From the NCBI RefSeq assembly GCF_017811175.1, contig NZ_JACWIJ010000002.1, forward strand, positions 2,914,001 through 2,978,000: 64,000 bases of DNA, read 5' to 3'. Made by a program: the position numbers and the translations under genes. How positions within the stretch are numbered: position 1 is the first letter of the stretch; each line of letters begins with the position of its first letter. The DNA is from Melaminivora jejuensis (GTDB lineage Bacteria; Pseudomonadota; Gammaproteobacteria; Burkholderiales; Burkholderiaceae_C). This document shows positions 51,585 through 64,000 of this stretch, in pieces. The notes beneath the pieces are model-generated. The model did not search any database. It saw nothing but the letters and a program-made list of their open reading frames with translations, and was not told the origin of the DNA.

Positions 51585-52920
51585 CGGACGGCATAGCCGT
51601 CCTCAAACAACTGTATATTTAGCCAGCCATGCAACGCCTGCAAGCCTTCAAATACGAACTGCGCCCAGACGGCCAGCCAGAGCGGCAAATGCGCCGCTTC
51701 GCTGGCTCCTGCTGCTTCGTGTTCAACAAGGCGCTGGCGTTGCAAAAAGAACGCTACGCGCGTGGCGAGAAGAAGCTCGGCTACGCCGGCCTGTGCAAGC
51801 TGCTCACCGAGTGGCGCAACGGTGCGGATACGACATGGCTCTCTGATGCGCCGGTTCACCCGTTGCAGCAGACGCTCAAGGACTTGGAGCGGGCCTACCA
51901 GAATTTCTTCGCCAAACGTGCTGCCTTCCCGAAGTTCAAGAAGAAGGGCCAGCGGGACAGCTTTCGCTACCCCGACGCCAAGCAGATCAAGCTCGACCAA
52001 GCGAGCAGCCGCATCTTCCTGCCCAAGCTGGGCTGGCTGCGCTATCGGCAAAGCCGCGAGGTGCTGGGCGCGGTGAAAAATATCACTGTGAGCCAGTCGT
52101 GCGGCAAGTGGTTCGTGAGCATCCAGACCGAGCGGGAAGTCGAACAACCCATCCCCCAGGCCAGCACCGCCATCGGCATAGACGTAGGGGTGGCCCGCTT
52201 CGCCACCTTCAGCGACGGCTCCTATCTGGAGCCGCTGGCGAGCTTTAAGAAGCATGAAGCCCGCTTGCGTAGATACCAGCGGGCCATGAGCCGCAAGACC
52301 AAATTCAGCAGTAACTGGAAAAAGGCCAAGGCCCGCGTCCAGCGCATTCACACCCGCATTGGCAACGCCCGGCGCGACTACCTGCACAAAGCCACGACAG
52401 CCATCAGCCAAAACCACGCGATGGTGTGCATCGAGGACTTGCAGGTGAGGAGCATGTCCAAGTCAGCCAAGGGCAGCGCCGAGCAGCCAGGCAACAACGT
52501 GCGGGCCAAGTCCGGCCTGAACAAAAGCATCCTCGACCAGGGCTGGTACGAGTTCCGGCGGCAGTTGGAATACAAGCTGGCCTGGACTGGGGGAATGCTG
52601 ATTGCCGTGCCGCCGCACAACACCAGCAGAACCTGCCCCGAGTGCGGCTGCGTGAGCGCGGACAACCGCAGGGCGCAGGCCGTGTTCAGGTGCATCGAAT
52701 GCGGGTGCGAAGGCAACGCCGATCACATCGGCGCGATCAACATACTGGCGCGGGGACACCGCGTAGCAGCCTGTGGAGAGGACGTCAGCCGTGCAAGGCC
52801 CGCAAGGGCCAAGCGTGCAGCCTCGGTGAAGCAGGAACCCGCCGAGGCGATTGGTTCAGGCGATGAGTCTGTAATGGGCGCGGTAGGAATCCCACGCCTT
52901 TAGGCGGGGGAGGATGTCAA
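51585..52920 (+). mobile_element. IS200/IS605-type element carrying only tnpB
   Basis: A left palindrome GGACGGC-ATA-GCCGTCC (about 51583-51600) lies 5' of tnpB. A right-end hairpin (CCCACGCC-TTTA-GGCGGGGG) followed by AGGATGTCAA ends at 52920, the arrangement of IS605-type right ends. No tnpA is present, so it could only move if TnpA is supplied elsewhere. Ends are approximate. Confidence 0.6.
51629..52903 (+). CDS. tnpB: RNA-guided endonuclease TnpB (IS605 OrfB family)
   Basis: A 424-residue TnpB: N-terminal OrfB_HTH (MQRLQAFKYELRPDGQPERQMRRFAGSCCFVFNKAL), RuvC-like nuclease with Asp in IGIDVGVARF, Glu in VCIEDLQVRSM and Asp in NADHIGAINIL, and a zinc finger CPECG...CIECG. The three catalytic acids appear intact. 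The 3' end of the gene and the right-end hairpin should encode the omegaRNA; the guide would be the flanking DNA from 52921 (GGATCGGATGCCTGATCGGA). Confidence 0.9.
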   Translation: MQRLQAFKYELRPDGQPERQMRRFAGSCCFVFNKALALQKERYARGEKKLGYAGLCKLLTEWRNGADTTWLSDAPVHPLQQTLKDLERAYQNFFAKRAAFPKFKKKGQRDSFRYPDAKQIKLDQASSRIFLPKLGWLRYRQSREVLGAVKNITVSQSCGKWFVSIQTEREVEQPIPQASTAIGIDVGVARFATFSDGSYLEPLASFKKHEARLRRYQRAMSRKTKFSSNWKKAKARVQRIHTRIGNARRDYLHKATTAISQNHAMVCIEDLQVRSMSKSAKGSAEQPGNNVRAKSGLNKSILDQGWYEFRRQLEYKLAWTGGMLIAVPPHNTSRTCPECGCVSADNRRAQAVFRCIECGCEGNADHIGAINILARGHRVAACGEDVSRARPARAKRAASVKQEPAEAIGSGDESVMGAVGIPRL

Positions 52921-53511: not shown

Positions 53512-55769
53512 TTGCCCGCATTGACACCTATCGCCCACGCGGCCCGCGATGCAAGCGGCCAATGGCGCGCACCGCACGATCTGGTTGACCACTCCTATGA
53601 GGTGGGCGAGCTTGCCGCCGTTTTTGCCCGTGACTTCGGTCCTCAATGGGCACGCCTGGCAGGCCGCTGGCACGACCTGGGCAAATTCCGCTTGCGTTTT
53701 CAACACTACATCCGGTTGGTCAGCGGCTTTCAGGCGGACGCCCACATCAAGGGCGAGGCCGGCAAGGCGCCGCATTCGACAGCGGGCGCTGTGCTGGCCA
53801 TCGATCGTTTCGGTGCCGCAGGCCGTGTGCTGGCGTATGTGATCGCCGGTCACCACGCCGGACTCGCCGACTGGTTCGGCAGCCTGGACGCACGCCTGTC
53901 CGACCCCAGAAGCCGCGAGGAGCTGGACGAATCGCTGGCTGCTCAGCCACCTGCCGATCTTCTGGACACACAAAACTTCAAGCCTGACCTGCAGCACGTG
54001 CCCGGCGGCAGCGAGGGTTTTGCCTTGTGGGTACGAATGCTGTTTTCCGCGCTGGTCGATGCCGACTTCCTTGATACCGAGCGCTACATGGATCCCGAGC
54101 AATTCGCGCGGCGCAACACCTGGCCATCACTGCAGGAGCTGGCGCCGCAGTTCGATGCGCACATGGCAAAGCTGGCTGCGACTGCCGCCGCGACGCCCGT
54201 CAATGCGTTGCGCGGCTACATCCTGCGCCAGTGTCGTGCCGCCGCGTTGCTGGAACCGGGGCTGTTTTCGCTCACCGTGCCTACCGGAGGTGGCAAGACG
54301 CTGTCCGGCATGGCGTTTGCCATGGAGCACGCGCATCGCCATGGCAAGCGGCGCGTCATCCACGTCATTCCCTACACCAGCATCATCGAGCAGACGGTCG
54401 GGATCTTCCGGAGCATCTTCGGTGACGCCGTGATCGAGCACCACAGCAACGCCGAGAGCGCTGCGGACGATGAAACGGCGGCCTCGCGCCTGGCCAGTGA
54501 GAACTGGGATGCGCCCATCATCGTCACGACGAGCGTGCAGTTTTTTGAGTCGCTGTTCGCGGCGCGCACGTCGCGCTGCCGCAAACTGCACAACATCGTG
54601 CATTCCATCGTCGTGCTGGACGAGGCGCAACTGCTGCCGCCGCAGTTCTTGCAGCCTATTTTGGACGTGCTGCGGCTGCTGGTGCGCCACTACGGCGTCA
54701 CCGTGGTCTTGTCCACCGCGACCCAGCCCGCGCTGAACACGCGCAGCTATTTCGACCCCAGGCAGAACGTGCGCGGGCTGGACAGCGATGGCTTGTCGGT
54801 GCGTGAGATCATTGACGATCCTGATGCGCTATACGCCCGGCTGGAGCGCGTACGGGTGCGCCTGCCTGCCGATTGGCACCAGCCGACCGGGTGGCCTGAA
54901 CTGGCTAAAGAGCTTGCCACGCATGCCTCCTGCCTGGCCGTCGTCAACACCCGCGACGACGCTCGCGCGCTCTGGCAGACCATGCCGGCGGGCACGCTGC
55001 ACCTGTCCGCGCTCATGTGCGGCGCGCACCGCTCGCAGCTCATACAGGACATCAAGCAGCGGCTCGCTGCGGGCGTGCCCACCCGCATCATCAGCACACA
55101 GCTCATCGAGGCTGGGGTCGATATCAGCGTTCCTGTGGTGTACCGGGCGCTGGCCGGGCTGGACTCCATCGCCCAGGCGGCCGGCCGATGCAACCGCGAG
55201 GGGAATTGGAGGGTTTGGGCGAGGTGGTGGTGTTCGTGCCGCCCAGACCAGCGCCGTCAGGTCTGCTGCGGCTGGGGGAGGACGCCTGCCGCAGCGTCCT
55301 GCGTGATGGGCAGGGCAGGCCATTGGCGCGCGAGCGCTTTTCCGCCTATTTCGAGCGGCTGTACTACGGCTGCGATCTCGACAAGGCGGGCATCTGTTCA
55401 CTCCTGCAGGCGCAGGGCAACGAGCTGGCTGTGGGCTTTCGCACGGCGGCCGAAAAGTTCCGCCTGATCGACGACGAAGATAGCCTGCCCATCGTCGTGC
55501 GCTACCGCGGCAAGGACGGTCAGGACAAGAGCATCGACCAGTGGCTCGCCCTGCTGCGCCGCGACGGCCCGCAGCGCTGGCTGATGCGCAAGCTGCAGCG
55601 CTACACCGTCACGCTGCACCAGAAGAAGGCATTGGCATTGCTAGTCCAGGGCGACATCGAGGAACTCATGCCCGGCCTGTTCGTCCAGGTCAGCGACCTG
55701 CTCTACGACCCAGACCTGGGCCTCCTGCCGGATGGGAAGGCGCAGCGCAGCGAGAGCTATGTCACATGA
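53512..55769 (+). CDS. cas3: CRISPR-associated helicase/nuclease Cas3, type I-C (single-base frameshift as read)
   Basis: After correction a 752-residue Cas3: HD nuclease domain first (His27 in VDHSYEVGE, His54-Asp55 in GRWHDLGKF, later AGHHAGL), then SF2 helicase with Walker A VPTGGGKTLSG near residue 260 and DEAQ box near 370 (VVLDEAQLLPP). It degrades DNA recruited by Cascade. The frame breaks at the G run 55200-55203, inside AAGRCNREG(G)ELEGLGEVVVF, the late helicase motif. One more G restores the C-terminal 190 residues. Start TTG with AGGAG 7 bp upstream. Confidence 0.93.
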
Positions 55770-55795
55770 AAAACAGCCGGGGATGAATCCCCGGC
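55770..55795 (-). terminator. Intrinsic terminator of the CreR-like RNA
   Basis: Perfect 8-bp stem GCCGGGGA-TTCA-TCCCCGGC followed on the minus strand by TGTTTTT. The T tract is on the minus strand only, so it ends a leftward transcript, not cas3. Confidence 0.8.
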
Positions 55796-55868
55796 CGCCT
55801 GGAGCTTCAGGCCAGCGTGACCTTGGGCCTGTCTAAGTTTCAATCCGCACGGCTGGCCGCGTCGCGCC
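55770..55868 (-). ncRNA. CreR-like crRNA analogue predicted to repress the cas operon
   Basis: On the minus strand a 32-nt degenerate type I-C repeat (55868-55837) folds as CGCGG-CCAG-CCGTG and ends CGGATTGAAAC, the 11-nt handle that Cas5c leaves on I-C crRNAs. A -10 box TACAAT (55874-55869), with CTGAAA 16 bp further upstream, would start transcription near 55862. The guide that follows begins TTAGACAGGCCCAAGG and runs into an intrinsic terminator. Its first 16 nt match the cas5c promoter at 55924-55909 in 14 positions. The mismatches are at guide positions 6 and 15; position 6 is not read by type I effectors. The genomic TTC PAM is directly adjacent. There is no second repeat, so it is a solo mini-CRISPR. 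Precedent: CreR/CreA-type guides in other CRISPR systems. Confidence 0.68.
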
Positions 55869-55905
55869 ATTGTAAGAGGCAAGAGCATTTTTTCAGGGTA
55901 AGTCA

Positions 55906-55937
55906 CTACATTGGGCCTTTCTAAGAAATAGAATAAT
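55906..55937 (+). promoter_or_regulatory. Candidate cas5-cas8-cas7 promoter overlapped by the CreR target
   Basis: AT-rich stretch 30 bp before cas5c. The -10 candidates are TAGAAT (55929-55934, with CTACAT 17 bp upstream) and AATAAT (55932-55937). The CreR protospacer (55924-55909) and its PAM (minus strand TTC, 55927-55925) lie in the -35/spacer region. A bound Cascade would cover the promoter. Confidence 0.5.
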
Positions 55938-55966
55938 CGCTACAGGTTTTGCGTTGGGAGGTTGTC

Positions 55967-56632
55967 TTGAAGACCTACTGTCTGGAACTGTCCGGCCCCT
56001 GGGCCTGCTTTACGCGGCCTGAGATGAAAGTAGAGCGCGTGAGTTATGACGTGATGACGCCTTCGGCCGCGCGCGCCTGCTTCGAGGCTGTTTTATGGAA
56101 GCCGGCGATTCGCTGGCATGTGTACCGGATCGAAGTGTTGCGGCCCATCCGCTGGATCAATCTGCGGCGCAACGAGGTGGCCAGCGTTGTCTCCACGCGC
56201 AACGTCGAGTCTGCCATGAGGGCGGGCAAGGGCTCCTTGGGGCTTACCGTCGAAGACGATCGCCAGCAGCGTGCCGGCCTGCTTCTGCGCGATGTAGCCT
56301 ACCGCGTCCATGCTGGGCTGGAGTTCCTGCAGGAACGCGACGCGGGCGCCCATGCCGTCAAGTACCACGAGATGTTCGAGCGGCGTGCGCGCAAGGGACA
56401 GTGCGTCAACCAGCCCTACCTGGGTTGCCGTGAGTTCGCCGCAGCTTTTCGCCTGGTGGACGATCCGCAGGCTGAAGCAGCCCCCATCCCGGATACGCGC
56501 GACCTGGGCTACTTGCTGCACGATCTGGATTTCTCCAACCCCGACAGCCCGCAGCCGCGCTTTTTCCGCGCCCAGCTCAACGCTGGTGTCGTCGAGGTGC
56601 CCCACTGGGGCAGCCAGGAGGTGCGCGCATGA
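55967..56632 (+). CDS. cas5c: Type I-C Cascade subunit and pre-crRNA endonuclease Cas5c
   Basis: A 221-residue Cas5d/Cas5c beginning with TTG (55967), five bases after GGGAGG. Family start KTYCLELSGPWACFTRPEMKVERVSYDVMTPSAARACFEAVLWKPAIRWHV is intact. In type I-C it replaces Cas6, cutting pre-crRNA at the repeat hairpin, and stays bound to the 5' handle. Its gene overlaps cas8c as ATGA. It lies behind the promoter apparently targeted by the CreR-like RNA. Confidence 0.95.
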   Translation: MKTYCLELSGPWACFTRPEMKVERVSYDVMTPSAARACFEAVLWKPAIRWHVYRIEVLRPIRWINLRRNEVASVVSTRNVESAMRAGKGSLGLTVEDDRQQRAGLLLRDVAYRVHAGLEFLQERDAGAHAVKYHEMFERRARKGQCVNQPYLGCREFAAAFRLVDDPQAEAAPIPDTRDLGYLLHDLDFSNPDSPQPRFFRAQLNAGVVEVPHWGSQEVRA

Positions 56633-58398
56633 TTCTCCAGGCCCTGGACGCCTATTACCGGCGCAAGCAGGCAGACCCTGACCCAGCCCAGCGGCTTCCA
56701 GCCGAAGGGCTGGAGGACAAGGAGATTCCCTTCATCCTGGAAATCGATGCCCAGGGGCGCTTGGGGAACGTGGTTGACACCTGCAGTGTCGAGGGCAAAA
56801 AGCGGATCGGCCAGCGTTTCCTGGTGCCGCAGGGCGTCAAGAAGACTTCAGGCGTCGCTGCCAATCTGCTATGGGACAGTGCCGAATACGTGCTGGGCAC
56901 CCCTGACCCCAGGAAGCTTGAGGACAGCCGTCAGAAAGGCAAGGAGGGTGAATATCGGGCGCGCCTGCTGGAGATGCGCGCGGCCTTCCGAGCTCGAATC
57001 GCCGAACTGCCTGAGGGCGTTCAGGATGACGCCGGGGTGCGCGCGGTGTTGGCGTTTCTCGATGGCCTGGACTTGGAGGCATTGCAACATCTACCCGCGC
57101 TGGCGGATATCCAGGCGGCCAACCCTGTGTTGAGTTTTCGCCTGGAGGGCGAGTTGGCGCTGGTCTGCCAGCGTGAAGCCGTCGCCCATGCCGTCCTCGC
57201 GCAAAGCGAAGGGCCACCGGATGGCGTCTGCCTGGTGCGGGGCGAAACTGCGGCCATTGAGCGTTTGCACCCGGCCATCAAGGGGGTCTGGGGGGCGCAG
57301 ACCTCCGGGGCCAACATCGTCTCGTTCAATCTCGACGCCTTCAACTCTTACGGCAAGTCGCAGGGCGCCAATGCGCCGCTGGGCAAGGCGGCCACCTTTG
57401 CCTACACCACGGCGCTCAACCACCTGTTGGCGCGCGACTCGCGCCAGCGCATCCAGGTGGGCGATGCTTCGACGGTTTTCTGGGCCGAAGCGCCGCACGA
57501 CCTGGAAACCGCCCTGCCCGACCTGTTCGGCGAGCCAGCCAGGGACGATCCAGACCGCAATGTCCAGGCCGTCGAGGCGCTGTACCGCACAGTCCACACC
57601 GGCCAGTTCGCCCAGGGCGGGCCTGACACGCGCTTTCACGTGCTGGGCCTGGCACCGAACGCAGCGCGCATCAGCATCCGTTTCTGGGAGACAGCCACCG
57701 CTGCGGAGCTGGCGCTCCGCATCCGGCAGCATTTTGACGACCTGCAAGTCGTACACGCCGAGCACGAAGCGCGGTATTTGTCTCTGTTTCGCACACTGAC
57801 GGCCGTGGCGCTGCAAGGCAAGGTGGAGAACATCCCGTCGCGGCTGGGCGGCGACGTCCTGCGCTCCATCCTGGAGGGCTTGCCTTATCCAGTCCAGTGG
57901 CTGAACCTGGCCGTCCTGCGCTGCCGTGCCGAGCAAAAGGTGACTTACGCGCGCGCGGCCGCCATCAAGGCCTGCCTCAATCGTTTCATCCGTTCTCGCA
58001 AAAGCCTCGACAAGGAGTTGCTGCCCATGCTCGACCCGTCCAACGCCCATCCGGCCTACCGGCTCGGTCGGCTGTTTGCCACCCTGGAAAAAATTCAGGA
58101 AGAAGCTAGCCCAGGGCTCAACGCCACCATCCGCGACCGCTTTTACGGCGCCGCTTCGAGCACGCCGGTCGCTGTGTTCACCACGCTGCTGCGGCTGAAG
58201 AACCATCACCTGGGCAAGCTGAACCCCGGCCGCGCGGCGCAGATGGAAAAACTGATAGGCGACATCCTCGGCGAAGTGGCTGAATTTCCTGCGCGCCTGA
58301 GGCTGCCTGATCAAGGACTTTTCGCGCTGGGCTACTACCACCAGCGCCAGGCCTTCTTCACCAAGACCGAAACCAGGAACCAGGAGGATTCCCAATGA
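56629..58398 (+). CDS. cas8c: Type I-C Cascade large subunit Cas8c (Csd1)
   Basis: A 589-residue Csd1/Cas8c starting [14 protein letters not shown] with [43 protein letters not shown] and [13 protein letters not shown] at the C-terminus. It recognises the PAM (TTC in I-C) and holds the complex on target. In I-C loci an internal start can also give a Cas11-like product; I did not identify one. Overlaps cas5c and cas7c by 4 bp each. Confidence 0.95.
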
Positions 58399-59381
58399 GT
58401 CTCGCCCGACGCTACGACTTCGTCCTTGTCTTCGATGTGAAGGACGGCAACCCCAACGGCGACCCGGATGCGGGCAATATGCCGCGCCTGGATGCCGAGA
58501 CCGGGCACGGTCTGGTCACCGACGTGGCGCTCAAGCGCAAGGTACGCAATTTCGTCGCCCTGGTGAAAGACCAGGAGCCGCGCGAACCTGCCGCCGGGGA
58601 AAAGCGCTTCGAGATCTATGTGCGTGAAAAGGCCATCCTGAACCAGCAGCATGAGCGTGCCTATTCGGCGCTGAATATGGCCGTAGCGCCCGAGGAGCAA
58701 GCGCCAGCAGCTACAGAAAGCGAAGCGCCCGACACCAAGAAGAAAAAGCCTGCCAAGGACAAGCGCAAGGGCAGCGCCGACGAAGTGTTCCAGGCGCGCC
58801 AGTGGATGTGCCAGAACTTCTTCGACGTGCGTACTTTCGGCGCCGTGATGTCCACGGGCGTCAATTGCGGCCAAGTGCGCGGCCCGGTGCAGTTGACTTT
58901 CGCGCGTTCGGTCGAGCCCATCGTGGCGCTGGAGCACTCCATCACCCGCATGGCTGTGGCCACCGAAGCCGAAGCGGAAAAGCAGCAAGGCGACAACCGC
59001 ACCATGGGCCGCAAGCACACCGTGCCCTATGGCCTGTATGTGGCGCATGGCTTCGTCTCCTCCTTCCTCGCCAGGCAGACCGGCTTTGGCCCGGACGATC
59101 TGGAACTGCTGTGGCAGGCACTCGGCCAGATGTTCGAGCACGACCGCTCGGCCGCGCGCGGCGAGATGGCGACGCGCGGGCTGTACGTCTTCGAGCACGA
59201 GAGCGAACTGGGCAACGCGCCGGCACATGCGCTGTTCGACCGCCTGAAGGTCGCACCGCGCGAGGCGGGTCAGGTGGCACGCGGCTTTGATGCCTACGAG
59301 GTGGCGTTCGATGGGGAGAGTCTGGCGCCTGGCGAGCGAGTGCAGGCGGCGCCTGGCGTCACATTGCGTCGGCTTTGCTGA
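58395..59381 (+). CDS. cas7c: Type I-C Cascade backbone subunit Cas7c (Csd2)
   Basis: A 328-residue RAMP protein with the family start [27 protein letters not shown] and [26 protein letters not shown]. Multiple copies coat the crRNA spacer. Residues 95-125 are a Lys/Ala/Glu-rich insertion ([17 protein letters not shown]) longer than in many homologues. Overlaps cas8c (ATGA); an unrelated gene follows after 14 bp in the place where cas4 is expected. Confidence 0.95.
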
Positions 59382-59395
59382 CGGGAGGGCCGGCC

Positions 59396-60268
59396 ATGAA
59401 AGTGCTGCCCACTGATTTCGAAGGCCAGTCCATCCGCCGCATCTATGACGAGGCCACCGAGACCTGGTGGTTCTCCGTGATTGACATCGTGCAGGTGCTG
59501 ACCGGTACGACCAATGCGCGCAGGTATTGGTCAGACCTCAAGCGCAAACTGGCGCGCGAGGCCGGGTCGGAGCAACCGTACGCGGAAATCGTACAGTTGA
59601 AACTCACGGCGCCGGACGGCAGGAAACGCGAGACCGACTGCGCCAAGGCGGCAACGCTGCTGCGCATCGTCCAGTCCATCCCCAGCCCCAAAGCCGAGCC
59701 CATCAAGCTCTGGCTTGCCAAGGTCGGCTACGAGCGCATGCAGGAGATCACCGACCCGGCCCTGTCGCTGGAGCGCGCCCGCCAGACCTGGCAGCAGCAG
59801 GGCCGCAGCGACAAGTGGATCCAGCAGCGCATGACCGGGCAGGAGACGCGCAACAAGCTCACCGACTACTGGAGCGAACACGGCATCCAGCAGGGGCGCG
59901 AGTTCGCCATCCTCACCAACCTGATCCACCAGGAATGGTCGGGCCTGTCCGTGGCCGAGCACAAACAGACCAAGGGCCTGACCAGCCATAACCTGCGCGA
60001 CCACATGAGCGAGGCCGAGCTCATCTTCACCGCGCTGGCCGAGCTGTCCACCCGCCAGATCGCCGAGCGCCAGCAGGCCACCGGCATGGCCGAGAACAAG
60101 ACCGCCGCGCAGGCCGGCGGGCGCATTGCCGGCCAGGCGCGCCAGCAACTGGAGAGCCAGACCGGCCAGCCGGTGGTGTCTGCATCGAACTACCTGCCGC
60201 CTGATGTCCAGCCCCCGGCCCGCCTGCCGCGCAAGCCCGCGCCCAAAGGCGGCAAGCGCCAGGGCTGA
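59396..60268 (+). CDS. DinD/BRO-like (KilA-type antirepressor) protein inserted in the cas operon
   Basis: A 290-residue protein with an N-terminal BRO/Bro-N-like domain (GQSIRRIYDEATETWWFSVIDIVQVLTGTTNARRYWSDLKRKL) and a C-terminal half as in DNA-damage-inducible protein D (ITDPALSLERARQTWQQQGRSDKWIQQRMTGQETRNKLTDYW, HNLRDHMSEAELIFTALAELSTRQIA). It is not a known Cas protein. It sits in phase between cas7c and cas4, with a good GGAGG site, 14 bp after cas7c and 3 bp before cas4, so it is co-expressed with the adaptation genes. Confidence 0.85.
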   Translation: MKVLPTDFEGQSIRRIYDEATETWWFSVIDIVQVLTGTTNARRYWSDLKRKLAREAGSEQPYAEIVQLKLTAPDGRKRETDCAKAATLLRIVQSIPSPKAEPIKLWLAKVGYERMQEITDPALSLERARQTWQQQGRSDKWIQQRMTGQETRNKLTDYWSEHGIQQGREFAILTNLIHQEWSGLSVAEHKQTKGLTSHNLRDHMSEAELIFTALAELSTRQIAERQQATGMAENKTAAQAGGRIAGQARQQLESQTGQPVVSASNYLPPDVQPPARLPRKPAPKGGKRQG

Positions 60269-60271
60269 GCC

Positions 60272-60913
60272 ATGGCCGAGACGCCCGACCCCATTCCCCT
60301 GTCGGCGCTGCAACACTGGTGCTACTGCCCGCGCCAGTGCGGCCTGATCCATCTGGAGCAGGCCTTCGACGACAACCTGCACACCCTGCGTGGCCAAGCC
60401 ATGCACGCGCGCACCGACCAGCCCGGCGTCGAGACGGCCCGTGGCGTGCGTGTGGAGCGCGCGCTGCCGCTGTGGCATGACGTGCTGGGGTTGGTGGGCA
60501 AGTCCGACGTGGTCGAATTTTTGCCCGGTGGCGCGCCCTACCCGGTCGAATACAAGCACGGCAGCCGCCACAAGGCGGCCGACATCGCCGCCTGCGACGA
60601 CCTGCAGCTGGCTGCGCAGGCGCTGTGCCTGGAACACATGACCGGCCAGCCCGTACCCGAGGGTGCGCTGTACTACGCCAGCTCGCGCCGGCGCCGGGTG
60701 GTGGTCATCCATGCCGAATTGCGCGCCCAGGTCGTCGATACCGCGCAGGCCATCCGCCAGATGCTGGCCAGTGGCGAGTTGCCACCGCCGCTGGCAGGCG
60801 AGCAGGCGACGCGGCGCTGCAAGGGCTGCTCGCTCATCGACCGCTGCCAGCCGCTGGCCACGCACGCCGGCCTGGATGCTGCCCGCCAGACGCTGTTCGA
60901 CCCCGACGCATAA
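60272..60913 (+). CDS. cas4: CRISPR-associated exonuclease Cas4
   Basis: A 213-residue RecB-like nuclease with iron-sulfur cysteines (WCYCPRQCGLIH at residues 16-27 and CKGCSLIDRC near 190) and the nuclease core VEFLPGGAPYPVEYKHG then AALDDLQLAAQ-like CDDLQLAAQAL. With Cas1-Cas2 it trims prespacers and enforces the PAM. It starts 3 bp after the DinD-like gene. Confidence 0.93.
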   Translation: MAETPDPIPLSALQHWCYCPRQCGLIHLEQAFDDNLHTLRGQAMHARTDQPGVETARGVRVERALPLWHDVLGLVGKSDVVEFLPGGAPYPVEYKHGSRHKAADIAACDDLQLAAQALCLEHMTGQPVPEGALYYASSRRRRVVVIHAELRAQVVDTAQAIRQMLASGELPPPLAGEQATRRCKGCSLIDRCQPLATHAGLDAARQTLFDPDA

Positions 60914-60941
60914 CGCCGCCGCCCCGGCGCAGGAGACCGGC

Positions 60942-61970
60942 ATGCAACTGCTCAACACTCTGTACGTCACCCTGGAGGGCGCCTGGCTGCGGCTGGACAA
61001 CGACACGCTGCGCGTGGAGGTCGAGCGCGAGACGCGGCTGCGCGTGCCGCTGCACCACCTGAGCGCAGTGGTCTGCTTTGGTCACGTCGGCCTGTCCGCG
61101 CCGCTGATGCACCGGCTGGCCGACGAGGGCATTGCCCTGGTGCTGCTGGACGACAACGGCCGCTACAAGGCGCGCCTGGAGGGCGCGATGAGCGGCAACG
61201 TGCTGCTGCGCCAGGCGCAGTTCCAGCGATTGGCGGACGCGGCCTTCACGCTGGACACGGCGCGCGCCTGCGTGGCCGGTAAGGTCAAGAACTGCCGACA
61301 GGTTTTACAGCGCGGCGCGCGCGAGGCCAAGACGGAAGCCGAGGCCGCCGCGCTGGCCCGTTTGGCCGACGACCTGGCGGCCAGTCTGCGCGCCCTGCCC
61401 GCTGCCGGCAGCCTGGACGGCCTGCGCGGCGTGGAGGGCGAAGCCGCGCGGCAGTATTTCAGCGGCCTGAATCTGCTGGTGCGTCCCGACCAGCGCGCCA
61501 CCTTCGCCATGGACGGTCGCACCCGTCGCCCGCCGCGTGACCGCTTCAACGCTCTGCTGTCTTTTTTGTACGCCATGTGGATGAACGATTGCCGCAGTGC
61601 GCTGGAGGCGGCTGGGCTGGATCCGCAGGCGGGCTTTTTGCACGCACTGCGCCCGGGCCGGGCTGCCCTGGCCCTGGACTTGATGGAGGAATTTCGCCCC
61701 TGGGCCGATCGCCTGGCGCTCACCCTCATCAACCGCGGCCAGTTGAACGACCATGATTTCGCGATGCGCGAGGGCGGCGCCGTAGCGCTTGCGCCAGACG
61801 CGCGCAAGGCCGTGGTCGTCGCCTTCCAGGAGCGCAAGAAGGACGAGATCAGCCATCCGCTGCTGGCGCAGACGCTGCCCTTGGGGCTGGTGCCATTGGT
61901 GCAGGCCCGGCTGATGGCGCGCGCCGTGCGCGACAGCGCCGCGCCGTACATCCCATTTGTGCCCAAATAG
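60942..61970 (+). CDS. cas1: CRISPR-associated endonuclease/integrase Cas1
   Basis: A 342-residue type I-C Cas1. Catalytic metal ligands are in GVEGEAARQYF (Glu), FLHALRPGRAALALDLMEEFRP (His and Asp/Glu). The start MQLLNTLYVTLEGAWLRLDNDTLRVE is typical for I-C. It integrates spacers with Cas2. ATG at 60942 with AGGAGACCGGC upstream. Confidence 0.96.
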   Translation: MQLLNTLYVTLEGAWLRLDNDTLRVEVERETRLRVPLHHLSAVVCFGHVGLSAPLMHRLADEGIALVLLDDNGRYKARLEGAMSGNVLLRQAQFQRLADAAFTLDTARACVAGKVKNCRQVLQRGAREAKTEAEAAALARLADDLAASLRALPAAGSLDGLRGVEGEAARQYFSGLNLLVRPDQRATFAMDGRTRRPPRDRFNALLSFLYAMWMNDCRSALEAAGLDPQAGFLHALRPGRAALALDLMEEFRPWADRLALTLINRGQLNDHDFAMREGGAVALAPDARKAVVVAFQERKKDEISHPLLAQTLPLGLVPLVQARLMARAVRDSAAPYIPFVPK

Positions 61971-61979
61971 GAGGCAGCC

Positions 61980-62270
61980 GTGCTGGTGCTGGTTTGCTAC
62001 GACGTCAATACCGAAACCAAGGCCGGTCGCCGCCGCCTGCGCCGCGTCGCCAAAGTGTGCGAGAGCACGGGACAGCGGGTGCAGAAGTCGGTGTTCGAGT
62101 GTCAGGTGGATGTGGCGCGGTTCGAAGAACTGGAGCGCCGGCTGCTGGCGGAAATCGATCCTGCGCAGGACTGCCTGCGGATGTATCGCATTCCTGGTAC
62201 TCGAGGGTTTGAGGTACTGGAGCATGGCACATTCAAGGCAACCGATTTCGATGGGCCGCTTGTGCTTTGA
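61980..62270 (+). CDS. cas2: CRISPR-associated endoribonuclease/adaptation protein Cas2
   Basis: A 96-residue Cas2 with the ferredoxin-like start [41 protein letters not shown] and the usual length. GTG start, with GGAGGCAGCC directly upstream. It is the last cas gene; the leader and array follow. Confidence 0.95.
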
Positions 62271-62488: not shown

Positions 62489-64000
62489 GTTCGCTCGTCA
62501 GAAATGACGGGCGTGGATTGAAACAGGTGCGCGTCCATCGCCTGGCGCATCAGCCGCTGTTCGCTCGTCAGAAATGACGGGCGTGGATTGAAACAACGCC
62601 TACGTGCGCAGCCGGCGCGCCACCGCGCGTTCGCTCGTCAGAAATGACGGGCGTGGATTGAAACGCGCTCGCGCTCCTGCCGCTCTTCGGCGCGCTTGGG
62701 TTCGCTCGTCAGAAATGACGGGCGTGGATTGAAACAGACGCAAGCAAAAAGATCAAACAAGCCCTGGACAGTTCGCTCGTCAGAAATGACGGGCGTGGAT
62801 TGAAACACGCCAGTGCGCCAGCGAATGCGGATCGAGGTCTTGTTCGCTCGTCAGAAATGACGGGCGTGGATTGAAACGGCTCAGGGATGGCCGATGTGTC
62901 GCGCTTGGCAAGTTCGCTCGTCAGAAATGACGGGCGTGGATTGAAACTATGCCGGGATGATCTGGGGCGAGGTGGCGCAGTGTTCGCTCGTCAGAAATGA
63001 CGGGCGTGGATTGAAACCGAATTTCACCGTACCAACCGGGAGCCGACTGTCGTTCGCTCGTCAGAAATGACGGGCGTGGATTGAAACAGCGGCTCCAGCT
63101 TGGTCTTGGTGTAAGTCCACTGGTTCGCTCGTCAGAAATGACGGGCGTGGATTGAAACAGGCCCTTGATGCACACGGCCAGGACAGCCGGCGGTTCGCTC
63201 GTCAGAAATGACGGGCGTGGATTGAAACCATGTGCTCGATGTGCGTCTGTAGGGCGTCGGCGTGTTCGCTCGTCAGAAATGACGGGCGTGGATTGAAACA
63301 CTGGTCGGCTTGTCGGACTTGATCGACTCTGCGCGTTCGCTCGTCAGAAATGACGGGCGTGGATTGAAACATGGCGAACGGCGTGAACTTCATGTCCGCA
63401 CCGGTTCGCTCGTCAGAAATGACGGGCGTGGATTGAAACATGTCCGCACCGATGATGGCGACCTTCCCGGACGTTCGCTCGTCAGAAATGACGGGCGTGG
63501 ATTGAAACAGTCGGTCTTGCAAAAAGGGCCGCCCGAAGGCAGGTTCGCTCGTCAGAAATGACGGGCGTGGATTGAAACGTCTGGAACATGCTCACCACCT
63601 GAGCAGCGGTCGTTCGCTCGTCAGAAATGACGGGCGTGGATTGAAACATGACCTTGTCCATGCTCATCGTCATGGCTGATGCGGTTCGCTCGTCAGAAAT
63701 GACGGGCGTGGATTGAAACCAATCCTTGAATGGGATGGATGGCGCCGAAGCGCAGTTCGCTCGTCAGAAATGACGGGCGTGGATTGAAACCTCGATGGCA
63801 AGGGCGGCTGTTTCGATCTCGCCAGTTCGCTCGTCAGAAATGACGGGCGTGGATTGAAACATGCCCCACTGCATCGACTGCAGGCACACCGCGAGTTCGC
63901 TCGTCAGAAATGACGGGCGTGGATTGAAACGCGAATCTCGAAGCCGAACTGGCGCAGCAGTTGGCGTTCGCTCGTCAGAAATGACGGGCGTGGATTGAAA
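62489..64000 (+). CRISPR. Type I-C CRISPR array, 22 repeats in window, continuing beyond it
   Basis: Repeats are 36 nt: GTTCGCTCGTCAGAAATG then ACGGGCGTGGATTGAAAC. I saw no variation among the 22; the last lacks one base at the window edge. Twenty-one spacers of 33-36 nt lie between. The repeat folds as an 8-bp stem (CGCTCGTC-AGAAAT-GACGGGCG, one U.G pair), leaving an 11-nt handle TGGATTGAAAC. The leader is at the cas2 side, so spacer 1 at 62525 is newest. Spacers 13 and 14 overlap in source sequence and reveal a TTC PAM. The uniform repeats suggest an active array. Confidence 0.98.

Follow-up and report, generated by a model that had tools for sequence, protein, structure and literature searches.

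The last 10.5 kb of the window (the whole stretch of 64 kb that was analysed) contain a type I-C CRISPR-Cas system with the gene set cas3, cas5c, cas8c, cas7, cas4, cas1 and cas2 and a CRISPR array, all of them present and cas3 being frameshifted:

53512..55769, plus strand: cas3, frame shifted near 55200; the first part matches Cas3c to residue 566
55967..56632, plus strand: cas5c, inferred TTG start, Shine-Dalgarno-like GGGAGG at 55956-55961
56629..58398, plus strand: cas8c
58395..59381, plus strand: cas7
60272..60913, plus strand: cas4
60939..61970, plus strand: cas1
61980..62270, plus strand: cas2
62489..64000, plus strand: CRISPR array, 36-nt repeat with the 3' end TGGATTGAAAC, reaching the window end

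From the cas3 stop (55769) to the TTG start of cas5c (55967), the gap measures 197 nt. The frameshift near 55200 adjoins a short G run and may reflect either a true loss of Cas3 or a sequencing error. Within the cas operon, a Bro-N domain protein (59399-60268; PADLOC candidate PDC-S13, E 2e-118) is situated between cas7 and cas4, and a TnpB-like gene (51629-52903; OrfB_IS605, Cas12f1-like TNB domain) is found upstream of the CRISPR locus.

The gap between cas3 and cas5c contains, on the minus strand, a crRNA-like element outside the array, referred to as creR in the following:

55891..55896, minus strand: creR -35, CTGAAA (consensus promoter scan)
55869..55874, minus strand: creR -10, TACAAT (sequence and consensus promoter scan)
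55837..55868, minus strand: degenerate solitary repeat of 32 nt, ending in a crRNA 5' handle
55837-55847, minus strand: crRNA 5' handle CGGATTGAAAC, the final 11 nt of the degenerate repeat
55821..55836, minus strand: guide TTAGACAGGCCCAAGG, directly after the handle
55770..55795, minus strand: terminator-like hairpin with T tract (sequence and fold)

The promoter (CTGAAA-16-TACAAT) is sigma-70-like, agrees with the consensus at 9 of 12 positions and is the sole promoter match returned by the consensus scan in 55740-56000 (shuffles: 0.1 matches on average). The sequence-only reading had described TACAAT, repeat, guide and terminator-like hairpin on this strand, and all four were recovered at the positions it had given; some of its wording has to be modified. 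The handle that it called the exact I-C handle is present and is that of the effector, but it is identical to the array repeat end of the same genome at 10 of 11 nt only. Concerning the degenerate repeat, the handle is convincing, whereas the body is scarcely like the array repeat and a 5-bp stem beside the handle is no better than in shuffles (p 0.19). The intrinsic terminator is apparent in sequence and fold, as a GC-rich hairpin (55776-55795) followed by TGTTTTT on the minus strand, but was not reported by the automatic scan. From these parts, an RNA of about 90 nt would be expected, extending from about 55862 to 55770.

A second stretch resembling the guide lies on the same strand, its end 72 nt upstream of the guide, and adjoins a -10-like hexamer in front of cas5c:

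55909..55927, minus strand: target, TTC and protospacer TTAGAAAGGCCCAATG, the guide match behind a PAM
55925-55927, minus strand: PAM TTC
55909-55924, minus strand: protospacer TTAGAAAGGCCCAATG
55929..55934, plus strand: cas5c -10-like TAGAAT, read from sequence, beginning 1 nt past the PAM

Guide and target are identical at positions 1-5, 7-14 and 16, which bears out the earlier claim of a TTC-preceded match at the cas5c promoter and leaves position 6 as the only mismatch within the first 14 positions, as in the seed pairing of CreA. The complementarity is thus limited and situated behind a PAM at the predicted promoter of an effector gene, this promoter being a -10-like element, not a mapped one; the consensus scan reported no plus-strand promoter at TAGAAT or for cas5c. 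From the end of TAGAAT to the cas5c start codon there are 32 nt, and from the PAM-side end of the target to the first aligned Cas5c codon 45 nt, with comparable target-to-Cas5c distances in two related loci (L009, 33 nt; L138, 50 nt). No ORF of at least 25 codons is located between target and cas5c in the window, and neither a toxin RNA nor a toxin protein, as in CreTA or CrePA, was found there behind the target. Allowing up to two mismatches, TTAGAAAGGCCCAA occurs in the 64 kb only at the guide and target places (expected 0.11), and TTCTTAGANAGGCCCAA occurs in the 3.75-Mb genome only at the target and, without PAM, at the guide; a second such target is absent in the whole-genome search.

For comparison with other type I-C systems, Cas5c loci were taken from the window's family (51 of 399 genomes match; 42 of these, own genome included, were examined, namely all at E 1e-43 or better), from named genomes (80 loci kept of at least 588 encoding a relative), from the order (46 of 399 genomes match; 29 loci examined) and from the class (36 of 369 genomes match; 26 loci examined). 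These 177 loci were reduced to 165 by dropping 12 that were duplicates or had less than 150 nt upstream; weak class matches (L183-L185) and Cas5c places without a fetched locus were left out of the scan. Ectopic handles, defined as GGATTGAAAC at 9/10 or better, ending in GAAAC and at most 500 nt upstream of cas5c, were found at 36 sites in 35 of the 165 distinct loci; in the other 130 loci, the vicinity of cas5c lacks such a handle. Of 30 ectopic repeats, 17 form a stem of 5-7 bp directly before the 11-nt handle or one base off it, and only 7 of the 30 beat shuffles (p < 0.05).

The first 14 nt behind each handle were compared with all places within 500 nt, leaving positions 6 and 12 unscored and demanding no PAM. 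A partner of 11 or 12/12 exists for 23 of the 36 handles, and it is preceded by TTC in 21 of these 23, by TTT in one and by GTT in one, TTC making up 1.8% of the trinucleotides in the searched regions. Foreign guides placed in other handle loci reached such a partner in 6 of 1224 trials. With TTC required, 28 handles reach at least 9/12 and 24 at least 10/12, and foreign guides in the 35 handle loci matched at 12/12 behind TTC once in 1224 trials. The 26 class-level loci, fetched after the rule had been fixed, contributed 7 handle sites and 4 new TTC pairs of at least 10/12. No TTC partner of at least 9/12 was found for eight of the 36 handles (L086, L095, L127, L135, L148, L172, L179 and the second site of L158). 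Among these, L086 and L179 have partners with another PAM (TTT and GTT, respectively), L172, like L033, forms a pair from a variant of the handle (12/12 behind TTC in L172), the L148 handle has no partner, and the handles of L095, L127, L135 and the second L158 site look like chance handles. Low-scoring matches in L005 and L091 were discarded as noise, and a handle at the very edge of L035, seen in one scan, was absent in a rescan with a narrower margin.

The 24 TTC pairs of at least 10/12 comprise 24 different 14-mer guides, with a median identity between loci of 4/14; among 276 comparisons, at least 10 identical positions occur in only 3, and never more than 11. Since the guides differ and each has its own matching target, guide and target co-vary. 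Homologous loci in which guide and promoter sequences change independently had been named in the sequence-only reading as the observation that would speak against it, and the survey returned the opposite. The mismatches within these pairs are periodic: position 6 is mismatched in 14 and position 12 in 19 of the 24, compared with 14 of 288 cells at the other twelve positions (Fisher p 3e-23), a low rate that is owed in part to the selection threshold. Positions 6 and 12 were unscored in the selection, and their freedom to mismatch is therefore not an effect of it. Further out, positions 18, 19 and 20 are mismatched in 17, 19 and 18 of the 24 pairs. When all 14 positions were scored without a PAM (119 loci including duplicates, 21 handle sites), 14 partners of at least 11/14 were obtained, 13 of them with TTC, and the mismatch pattern was the same. 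Mismatches at positions 6 and 12 are a known hallmark of pairing by Cascade: the rule measured for CreA of Halobacterium hubeiense requires pairing at 1-5 and 7-11, leaves 6 and 12 dispensable and has TTC as PAM (PMC8501985). By eye, guide and target of L100 and L142 align better with one target base missing at or near position 6 and positions 11-12, as if a bulge at the unpaired position were tolerated.

This pattern bears on two explanations that do without a guide acting through Cascade. Short direct repeats are frequent beside promoters, and the similar stretches could accordingly be an ordinary repeat of this kind, a protein operator or a duplication, with no guide RNA involved. Such an origin is very improbable, because 21 of the 23 best pairs consist of one copy after a handle and one after TTC, because the mismatches fall mostly on positions 6 and 12, and because all 24 guides differ, whereas an operator bound by a protein should be conserved in sequence across loci; chance and direct-repeat explanations of the pairs were also rejected on account of the foreign-guide controls. 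Even less credible is an action of the RNA in trans, as an antisense to the cas5c leader: a transcript spanning the target could base-pair with the guide region, but a cas5c mRNA started from the -10-like element would lack the target, which is located further upstream, and antisense pairing would neither spare positions 6 and 12 nor require TTC.

Concerning the position of the targets, the 16 nt past the PAM were searched, by means of -10 weights, for the highest-scoring -10-like hexamer in 24 pairs of at least 9/12. Its mean score is 4.95, compared with 1.84 (sd 2.2) for places drawn at random from the stretch 20-330 nt ahead of cas5c in these loci. Resolved by position, the score peaks with 4.77 at 0-8 nt beyond the PAM, so that in most pairs the guide would lie over the -35/spacer region of a promoter-like site; poor scores are found in L036 (0.6) and L138 (1.2). 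The arrangement of L062 is different by eye, with a TTGACA/TACATT-like site ahead of the target and the guide situated downstream in the cas5c leader. The guides of both L062 and L086 are co-directional with cas5c and downstream of their own targets, the PAM of L086 being TTT, and in these two loci guide and cas5c may share one self-repressed promoter.

In the window, autorepression of cas5c of the CreR type is the best reading, since no ORF of at least 25 codons separates the target from cas5c, and the absence of any small protein there (see below) implies that the guide should brake cas5c directly. The sequence-only reading had proposed such an autorepression, and the co-variation of guides and targets adds support at the level of sequence. 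We consider it probable, at somewhat under nine in ten, that the cas3-cas5c gap of the window encodes a CreR-type RNA that represses cas5c via Cascade. The minus-strand RNA of about 90 nt with its one degenerate repeat would be transcribed and then cut, presumably by Cas5c as the I-C repeat nuclease (crRNA is processed by Cas5 in type I-C; PMC10651486), and the resulting crRNA-like guide with the usual 5' handle would be loaded into I-C Cascade. The complex would read TTC and pair with 13 of the first 14 nt at the cas5c promoter, position 6 (in relatives also position 12) remaining unpaired. As pairing ends after about 16 nt, it would be too short for an attack by Cas3, and Cascade would occupy the promoter and block RNA polymerase, its supply thereby limiting its own synthesis. 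The gene behind the target would be cas5c with the genes after it, and creR itself might also be affected. The brake would be lifted by competition from array crRNAs or by loss or blockage of Cascade; these release signals (crRNA abundance, anti-CRISPRs) are carried over by analogy from known CreR systems.

The module could also be a dead remnant, once functional and now decaying along with cas3, for which the frameshift near 55200 and the degenerate body of the repeat might be taken as signs. Guide and target, however, match at 12/12 pairing positions, and promoter-like site and handle are intact; moreover, repression is independent of Cas3, and the frameshift, lying beside a short G run, could have arisen in sequencing, which makes decay an improbable explanation.

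CreR RNAs of types I-B, I-E and V-A are described as crRNA-like RNAs that autorepress the effector genes (Liu et al. 2023; PMC13131331, PMC12737573). With these, the window shares a predicted crRNA-like RNA, limited complementarity to a cas promoter and the autorepression of effector genes, the last as predicted here; it differs by belonging to type I-C, with the target at cas5c behind cas3, and related I-C loci differ by bearing the same kind of guide ahead of a small membrane protein. CreA of Haloarcula hispanica and Halobacterium hubeiense resembles the window in the TTC PAM and in the dispensable positions 6 and 12, and that of H. hispanica also in having a single repeat followed by a terminator; as described there, CreA represses a tRNA-sequestering toxin RNA, whereas the target in the window precedes cas5c (PMC8501985). 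Repression of opaD by I-C Cascade lacking Cas3 is reported for a TTC site that covers the -10 of this gene, and the PAMs used for the I-C system of Neisseria lactamica, TTC and TTT, are consistent with the TTT of L086 (PMC10865793). In type I-B, a shortened spacer is reported to give repression without interference (PMC10989794). Type I-C is listed among the most common subtypes (PMC7684278). No title or abstract in the literature searched describes such guides in type I-C; predictions of CreR or of standalone repeats may include I-C cases.

Type II-A Cas9 is reportedly autorepressed by a natural guide, tracr-L (Workman et al. 2021). The likeness to the window consists in an effector that represses its own promoter through a natural guide; the type II-A system uses Cas9 and a form of the tracrRNA, whereas the window would use a crRNA-like guide and Cascade. 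For type I loci, Shmakov et al. (2023, NAR) reportedly describe standalone repeats whose spacers match promoters of cas or cargo genes, and the I-C cases presented here may overlap with these regulators.

In related loci, an ORF of about 40-60 codons is common behind the target. Its product has the consensus LLRELRLMxxQPxxRFYAAWLLVL (also LLRELRLMxxQPxxRFYAxW) and a hydrophobic stretch; 19 residues with a Kyte-Doolittle mean of at least 1.6 are found in 29 of 32 aligned sequences. A profile search (A3) of the six-frame ORFs of the 165 loci (26,870 ORFs) identified the protein in the cas3-cas5c gap of 17 loci with E < 0.01 (L014, L017, L020, L023, L048, L060, L078, L100, L131, L132, L133, L140, L145, L158, L164, L166 and L179), the next match having E 0.42. 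Each of the 17 also has an ectopic handle; handle-less loci gave no match with E < 0.01. The profile was built mostly from these loci or near relatives, such that the independent points are the absence from loci without a handle, the four loci fetched after the profile had been made (L158, L164, L166 and L179) and a search of 399 family genomes. The latter, scoring at most 16 candidates per genome, gave four strong matches (E 4e-17 or better), all in guide-bearing gaps, and eight weaker ones (E 1.6e-5 or weaker) in frames of 178-1372 codons with one exception of 86 codons. A database search returned 54 relatives, including proteins of Inhella inkyongensis and Aquincola tertiaricarbonis, with no Pfam domain and, where named, annotated as hypothetical or uncharacterized. 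Small hydrophobic ORFs of weaker likeness were assigned by eye in L123, L124, L031 and L142. The small ORF is directed away from cas5c in L164 and L166 (and, by eye, in L123); in most other loci, it ends 7-84 nt before the aligned cas5c start in the same direction, and, given this closeness, one promoter probably serves both. The window lacks the small membrane protein.

The gap itself varies with the module. The median distance between cas3 and cas5c is 27 nt in loci without guide (n=132; tail to 806; L033 and L172, with their variant handle, and L148 are counted here), 340 nt in loci with guide and small protein (n=20) and 283 nt in loci with guide and no small protein assigned (n=9), the last group being mixed, as, by eye, the target is followed by a lipoprotein-like ORF in L141 and by a small hydrophobic one in L174; four loci gave no distance. 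At a junction that is mostly short, the module thus appears as a cassette that separates the Cascade genes from cas3. Among ten close relatives, cas3 and cas5c are 11-15 nt apart in eight, and about 790 nt of other DNA lie between them in two; the module is present in the close relative L048. On a Cas5c tree (162 rows, quick method; L033 and L172 entered as guide-less), the guide-less label has to change at least 24 times, against a mean of 27.9 in shuffles, and well-supported branches force 17 of these changes; some of the loci in the tree come from MAGs of several phyla, which may have been wrongly assigned. This scatter fits frequent, undated gain and loss of the cassette. A plasmid search with the gap DNA gave no match.

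Because the small protein is first behind the target in many relatives and points outward in L123, L164 and L166, control of cas5c is not the common denominator of the family, and the small protein, which was encountered solely next to such guides, is a candidate for a toxin guarded by CRISPR. It might be argued that the window, too, is a toxin unit of the CreTA or CrePA kind, in which Cascade silences a toxin promoter and control of cas5c is secondary or absent. The membrane protein of 40-60 aa does follow the target in the 17 loci, all with an ectopic handle, the four strong matches among the 399 family genomes are four such gaps, and where the protein is directed outward the target would control it alone. 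In the window, however, TAGAAT lies 32 nt before the cas5c start with no ORF of at least 25 codons and no room for a toxin RNA, L009 and L138 are arranged likewise, and the small protein is itself a candidate toxin only; for the window we therefore hold a toxin unit to be unlikely and retain direct autorepression of cas5c. For the family as a whole, the module looks partly like a CRISPR-repressed toxin module, of which the window would be the form without small protein. Whether there is an exchangeable I-C cassette, consisting of guide, target and often a small toxin or alarm protein that Cascade keeps off, with the window as its protein-less CreR brake, appears to us evenly balanced. Such a cassette would release the toxin or alarm protein when Cascade fails or is inhibited; where the small protein is read ahead of cas5c, the same event would also raise Cascade, and one cassette would shift between addiction module and autoregulator.

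If autorepression holds, type I-C regulates itself via its own effector, and CreR is extended to another subtype. The cassette would also supply natural I-C guides that should repress without cutting, and the natural pairs, in which the rule of the sixth and twelfth base is displayed by evolution alone, would amount to an in vivo record, ready for use, of how Cascade pairs in the seed. The small membrane protein, as a new candidate for a CRISPR-guarded toxin, would allow a direct test of how cells respond to anti-CRISPRs.

In CrePA, a crRNA-like RNA directs the effector to silence a protein gene, an arrangement that the I-C loci with the small protein resemble; CreP is described as typically having a KilA-N domain, whereas the I-C protein is a membrane peptide of 40-60 aa without Pfam family (Shu et al. 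2025; PMC12737573). In L078, the frame of the small protein is seemingly interrupted, with guide and target kept, and in L179 the target ahead of the protein has the PAM GTT. By eye, an inverted repeat that may terminate transcription lies between the small ORF and cas5c in L140 and L179. In the gap of L141, an ORF whose signal is lipoprotein-like (ALVSC) replaces the small membrane protein that is usual there.
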